Positions 10,618 to 10,841 of a stretch of 57,839 nt of DNA are shown here, piece after piece. Every line of letters begins with the position of its first letter. Position 1 is the first letter of the stretch. The stretch spans positions 1 through 57,839 of the forward strand of contig NZ_JACJQA010000038.1 of NCBI RefSeq assembly GCF_014696355.1. Direction: 5' to 3'. This DNA is from Pseudanabaena sp. FACHB-1998. GTDB lineage: Bacteria > Cyanobacteriota > Cyanobacteriia > Pseudanabaenales > Pseudanabaenaceae. Under the pieces are notes generated by a model. That model was not told the DNA's origin, ran no database searches, and worked only from the letters and a program-made list of their open reading frames with translations. A program made the translations under genes and the position numbers.

Positions 10618-10841
10618 CTGGAATACTAATTCACGAAAGTGTTGCCACACTTTTGTGGATTGTAGCTGTTGCCATTCTTGTTAGGACACAAAACCAGAAG
10701 ACGAGTTGCGGCGCGAAGCGCCGCAACTCGCTTCTTGGGTTTTGATTTTTCCTAATATCAAGTGACCATAGCTATAAAAACCAAACCCAGTAAGGGTTTT
10801 TAAATTAAGAAATGGCGTAGCCATTTCTTAATTTGGTATAA
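10618..10841. repeat. Dispersed element B, copy 2, interrupted by element A
   Basis: The left part (10618-10660) holds the CACGAAAGTGTTGCCACACTT half and GTGGAT. The right part (10777-10841) holds CCC-AGTAA-GGG and the AAGAAATGGC-GTA-GCCATTTCTT hairpin, ending in TTTGGTATAA. The two parts join perfectly when 10661-10776 is removed, by comparison with the intact copy at 13606-13715. Confidence 0.75.
10661..10776. mobile_element. Dispersed element A, copy 2 (MITE-like, inserted in element B)
   Basis: It runs from TGTAGCTGTTGCCA to TGACCATAGCTATA, imperfect versions of the terminal inverted repeats seen at 20761-20876. The core is an AGTTGCGGCGC-GAA-GCGCCGCAACT hairpin. It is flanked by TG and TA, and the empty site has one TA, consistent with a TA target duplication in which one copy has mutated. 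There is no coding capacity; a non-autonomous IS630/Tc1-like element is inferred. Confidence 0.7.

Follow-up and report, generated by a model that had tools for sequence, protein, structure and literature searches.

Between a gene for a TPR protein and a fabG-like gene of Pseudanabaena sp. FACHB-1998 lies a block of repeated DNA, and we asked whether this block is a single element or one mobile element lodged in another, and what could have put it there. A preliminary description of the 57,839-nucleotide stretch that we analysed (the window) had proposed that a MITE-like element, A, interrupts a second repeat, B, uninterrupted copies of which occur in the same window.

Anatomy of the nested repeat

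Direct reading of the four stretches named in that description bore out each part of the proposal. A lies inside B, the insert has imperfect TATAGCTGTGGTCA-type ends with TG and TA as its flanks, and uninterrupted B copies are present in the window, including the two on the minus strand (Table 1). The insert coordinates given there, 10661-10776, were 2 bp off on each side and cut away both copies of the target. The copy of A in the window reads TAGCTG ... TAGCTA and, with the target dinucleotide, amounts to a net gain of 114 bp. When the flanks are joined over a single TA they form a gap-free B that matches the B profile at E 1e-30, with the junction at exactly profile positions 41-42, and uninterrupted B copies carry a single TA at the corresponding site. 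The left flank is TG rather than TA, so that the dinucleotide duplication is imperfect at this copy of A; we read this TG as a decayed TA. The insertion of A inside B is confirmed as a genuine event with the expected two-base footprint.

Table 1 Positions of the nested repeat, of related copies in the window and of a full-length IS630 elsewhere in the genome (G000, contig C47)
Feature	Position	Strand	Remarks
Left flanking triplet of B	10621-10623		GAA; 1 base off right triplet
Element B, left part	10624-10660	+	End TACT; hairpin CACGAAAGTG...CACTTTTGTG
Target dinucleotide, left copy	10661-10662		Now TG
Element A, predicted IS630-type MITE	10663-10774	+	112 bp; ends TAGCTGTTGCCA / TGACCATAGCTA; long internal palindrome
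Target dinucleotide, right copy	10775-10776		TA
Element B, right part	10777-10838	+	Hairpin around GGCGTAGCC; end GGTA (10835-10838)
Right flanking triplet of B	10839-10841		TAA
Uninterrupted B	2535-2635	-	Profile positions 6-106
Uninterrupted B	13612-13712	+	Flanked GAA / TAA
Uninterrupted B	41708-41803	-	Profile positions 5-100
Partial B	20876-20913	+	Profile positions 68-105; beside A copy 20761-20876
Further A copy	20761-20876	-	TA at both ends; abuts lone right-hand B hairpin
Further A copy	4126-4237	-	One end decayed; without TA at 4236-4237
Full-length resident IS630	G000:C47:24066-25018		953 bp; inverted ends of the same type as those of A; TA on both sides; frames broken

Two repeat families and a candidate transposase

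The window copy of A matched its own genome in at least 40 separate places (E 3e-55 to 3e-32), and the true copy number exceeds 40, because scoring covered just 40 of the 528 first-look candidates. The TATAGCTGTGGTCA end motif, sought genome-wide with at most 1 mismatch, gave 112 matches compared with 4 for a reversed-pattern control. From loci fetched for an A match or an A end alone we mechanically gathered 130 inverted pairs of A ends, 78 from the own genome and 52 from other members of the genus, the latter in best-match loci and 40 further places picked among the matches listed. A profile built from this same set confirmed 127 pairs, and 3 failed at 1e-6. Of the confirmed copies, 106 are bounded by TA on both sides and 126 on at least one, counts that the search slightly favoured in that the end motif used includes TA. 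At about 112 bp A has no room for a transposase, and it carries no such gene. The preliminary description had taken A for a non-autonomous element of IS630/Tc1 type with TA as its target; the TA flanks, the high copy number and the ends shared with IS630 (see below) support this assignment to a multicopy IS630/Tc1-type MITE.

The palindrome of A showed further regularities. Read with respect to the ends, its 3-base loop (10715-10717 in the window) is either GAA or TTC, in a ratio of 24:19 in the own genome and 19:13 in other genomes, with 55 of the 130 copies unscorable. Pairs of copies with 0-3 other differences (84 copies) had the same loop in 12 cases and opposite loops in 8, so that the loop seems to change orientation at a higher rate than the bases are substituted. 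Genome-wide, the apex of the palindrome, GCGGCGC-NNN-GCGCCGC, is found at 416 places (0 for the reversed control), several times the number of A ends, and a related solo palindrome without A ends lies at 13033-13089 in the window. Terminator-like hairpins are found on both strands of A (10701-10731 and 10715-10734), and A may therefore act as a mobile terminator; within 10500-10960 there were 3 terminator-like sites, 1 of them inside B, compared with 0.5 in shuffles.

Element B is a small mobile repeat in its own right, separate from A. B is normally unsplit, as the preliminary description had assumed: an alignment of 47 uninterrupted copies runs their full length, about 107 positions with three hairpins, and shows inverted ends, TACCAA... 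and ...TTGGTA, of only about 7 bp. The proposal has thereby passed both of the tests set for it in that description, on the TA flanks of A and on the integrity of B. Of the 47 copies, 36 had ends recognisable enough for scoring, and the flanking triplets agree in 21 of these, whereas shuffling gave a mean of 11.0 and reached 21 once in 20,000. The matching triplets, of the form TNA, are TAA or TTA in most cases and TGA in one. B has thus itself been transposed, with a target duplication of 3 bp that differs from that of A, a point that goes beyond the preliminary description. TNA duplications are linked with IS5 and IS1031. A search for a parent of B covered PF13586 and PF01609: an IS5-type (IS1031-like) candidate was not found through PF13586, which had 0 matches in the genome, and none of the 9 genome matches to PF01609 is bounded by B-like TNATACCAA ends on both sides.

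For A, the preliminary description had predicted an IS630-type transposase with similar ends, and the genome contains one. There are 11 genomic matches to PF13358; the C-terminal half of the best-matching transposase scores 120 bits against NF033545 (transpos_IS630; cut-off 100) and 135.6 bits against PF13358. The downstream end of that copy is TAGCTGTCGCCAAGTGTATTAGGACGC, reading inward, with TA outside. The left and right ends of A each share 20 of 27 bases with the end of the resident IS630, compared with 17 of 27 for the best of 200,000 random 27-mers against the right end. A full-length resident IS630 (Table 1) has ends of the form TATAGCT..CACCAAG..GTATTAGGACG between TA flanks and differs from A in being about 953 bp long with transposase frames, where A has no frames and a palindrome instead. 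We saw no intact, complete cognate transposase gene in this genome: frames are broken in the full-length copy, and the better copies, in contigs C36, C50 and C33, run off contig ends, which is what recent repeats would do to an assembly. Pieces of another transposase lie on both sides of the full-length copy (L063 1067-2019, with ORFs at 448-1032 and 2011-2298) and therefore suggest that one insertion sequence had inserted into another.

The transposase was found at E 1e-30 in 8 of 26 genomes of the genus, compared with A in all 26 searched. Its relatives at 79 named loci are apparently cyanobacterial, and in the flanks of these loci (350,654 bases) the only match to A or B was the end of an insertion sequence in Brasilonema: the left 33 positions of the A profile align with the left terminus of a complete IS630 there (E 7e-5).

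We consider it very probable that A is an IS630-type MITE that was inserted at a TA of a resident, independent B by a transposase supplied in trans. B would have arrived earlier between the TPR-protein and fabG-like genes, making its own 3-bp TNA duplication. An IS630-type transposase, probably that of the resident IS630, would then have acted in trans on ends of the TAGCTGT..CCA..TTAGGAC type, and A would have been cut and pasted, by analogy with ISY100 (below), into the TA in the linker between the first two hairpins of B, with duplication of the TA. Points against this account are the TG to the left of A, the one-base difference between the two triplets of this B, the failure to find an intact cognate gene and the narrower spread of the transposase than of A in the genus.

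Orthologous intervals bear on the place of B in this order. We fetched 23 fabG-side orthologues and scored the 19 with a TPR gene, leaving out 4 without a TPR match. The B profile had no match in any of the 19 TPR-fabG intervals, 9 of them with lengths of 92 to 130 bases; sequence divergence in these intervals prevents a base-by-base reading of the exact empty site of B. Full-length A-like matches occur in 2 of the 19 (L266 and L271), with weaker partial matches in others, and A therefore enters this interval independently elsewhere. In one orthologue (L268, genome G010) another large palindrome is inserted in a terminator-like hairpin after the TPR gene, upstream of fabG.

Recurrence of nests and choice of target

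The nest in the window is one of about 11 in its own genome. For a census, the flanks of each A copy, gathered without regard to B, were joined over a single TA and scanned with the B profile. This placed 14 of the 130 copies inside B, 11 of 78 in the own genome and 3 of 52 elsewhere. The junction falls at profile positions 41-42 in 6 of the 14 (the window, L014, L015, L018, L118 and L249), at 66-73 in another 6 and at 36-37 and 54-55 in 1 each. A further 9 nests at 41-42 and 1 at 36-37 come from loci fetched for their resemblance to a nest and, being biased, were kept outside the tests. Counts leave out L308 (a weak junction at profile 12-13, E 3e-4), L299, L300 and L306 (ambiguous junctions) and L298, the mutated A end of which escaped the end pattern; in L118 and L304 one side matches only part of B. 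Nests at 41-42 were verified by joining and profile in 6 of 26 genomes (G000, G001, G005, G008, G018 and G020), with a possible seventh, G019, represented by L298 and recognized by eye only.

That such composites recur in several genomes could be taken to mean that the two form a single element, with A as a normal internal part of B that other copies have lost. The census gives this reading practically no chance: 116 of the 130 A copies lie outside B, the 47 uninterrupted B copies align from end to end, and A enters B at several TAs (profile positions 36, 41, 54 and 66-73). We rejected it on these grounds.

It is also conceivable that a B-A-B composite arose once and then spread as a single unit by means of the B ends. 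Contiguous B-A-B matches are found in several genomes of the genus, several composites still have matching B triplets, as judged by eye, and the A copies of L015 and L018 are 97.4% identical and lie in the same orientation. Against this, A occurs both ways round at the shared TA: in 14 nests at 41-42 it runs along B in 5 and opposite to B in 5, the other 4 being too symmetric or weak to call at the margin of at least 20 that we used. Moreover, in pairwise comparisons among 13 nests, B was less alike than A in all 8 pairs with an A identity of at least 0.9 (A, 0.91-0.97; B, 0.69-0.86), a comparison that unequal rates of change in A and B, or gene conversion, could blur. Even L015 and L018 have B parts that are only 75.2% identical, and a common origin for the two would require gene conversion or very unequal rates. 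These two observations, both orientations at one TA and greater identity of A than of B, disfavour a single composite origin, which we regard as very unlikely. Since A lies in both orientations and is more alike than its host B copies, most nests look like separate landings of the MITE in B copies that had already diverged.

Recurrent landing at one TA raises the question of whether B attracts the MITE. The TA that lies between hairpins 1 and 2 of B might be a true hot spot, chosen for its DNA structure rather than tolerated. The site at 41-42 makes up 40 of the 266 TAs in B, for which 6 of 14 insertions has a P of 0.012, and none of the 14 is at the TAs near 57 (41 of 266) or at 83-84 (35 of 266), which have G/C-rich neighbours. 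In the own genome, with the window case excluded, 10 of 76 A copies are in B, compared with 36 of 842 background sites (P 0.0015), the background being intergenic TAs in the window with genes called by long ORFs. However, this background is a single 57.8-kb window with about 4 B copies, the enrichment is about 3-fold and the site preference has a P of about 0.01, and the same-TA cases beyond the census are biased by the nest-shaped query. A generally chooses targets that are A/T-rich beside the TA, as the B linkers are; the third base out from its TAs is A or T in 84%. Given these modest statistics and the choice of A/T-flanked TAs, a preference exercised in tolerant intergenic DNA explains most of the enrichment. 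A special landing pad in B is possible, and we hold a hot spot chosen by structure to be somewhat doubtful. We would put less weight still on a broader and unlikely proposal, in which the TAs of the B linkers form a structural landing pad for the IS630 transposase and, across the genus, a harmless docking array, with the GAA/TTC loop of A flipping faster than substitutions accumulate.

Comparison with known nested elements

In the open-licence PMC literature we found no paper on a MITE together with an insertion sequence in Pseudanabaena, and a search for nested MITEs in bacteria returned only a paper on rice. The insertion of A into B overturns nothing established. It provides a natural, countable record of the insertion sites of an IS630-type transposase, and, through the many nearly identical empty targets that B offers within one genome, it allows direct comparison of filled sites with empty ones. 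The nests also show cyanobacterial intergenic regions built up of stacked, unrelated mini-elements.

Among cyanobacterial elements, Nezha resembles A in being a MITE. ISY100 (ISTcSa) of Synechocystis PCC6803 resembles A in being cyanobacterial, of the IS630/Tc1-mariner group and TA-targeting with a 2-bp duplication. As described in PMC2170065, ISY100 uses almost only TA targets and duplicates the TA, and its cut-and-paste transposition was established in vitro. Unlike A, it is autonomous, and the work in that source was done in vitro (PMC2170065).

Nested mini-transposons are already a known kind of structure. The RUP, BOX and SPRITE repeats of the pneumococcus reportedly show nesting of this sort (PMC3049150; also in the review PMC10969869), and RUP of Streptococcus pneumoniae is given there as a 107-bp repeat with ends like those of IS630-Spn1 (PMC3049150). 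According to the same account, an earlier proposal that RUP prefers insertion sequences was found to be unsupported (PMC3049150). The pneumococcal repeats differ from A and B in organism and sequence. The A-in-B nests make recurrent use of one exact target dinucleotide, whereas the passages of PMC3049150 on RUP, BOX and SPRITE report none. The nest of A in B is thus the same type of event in new sequences and better counted, and what it adds is recurrence at one dinucleotide.
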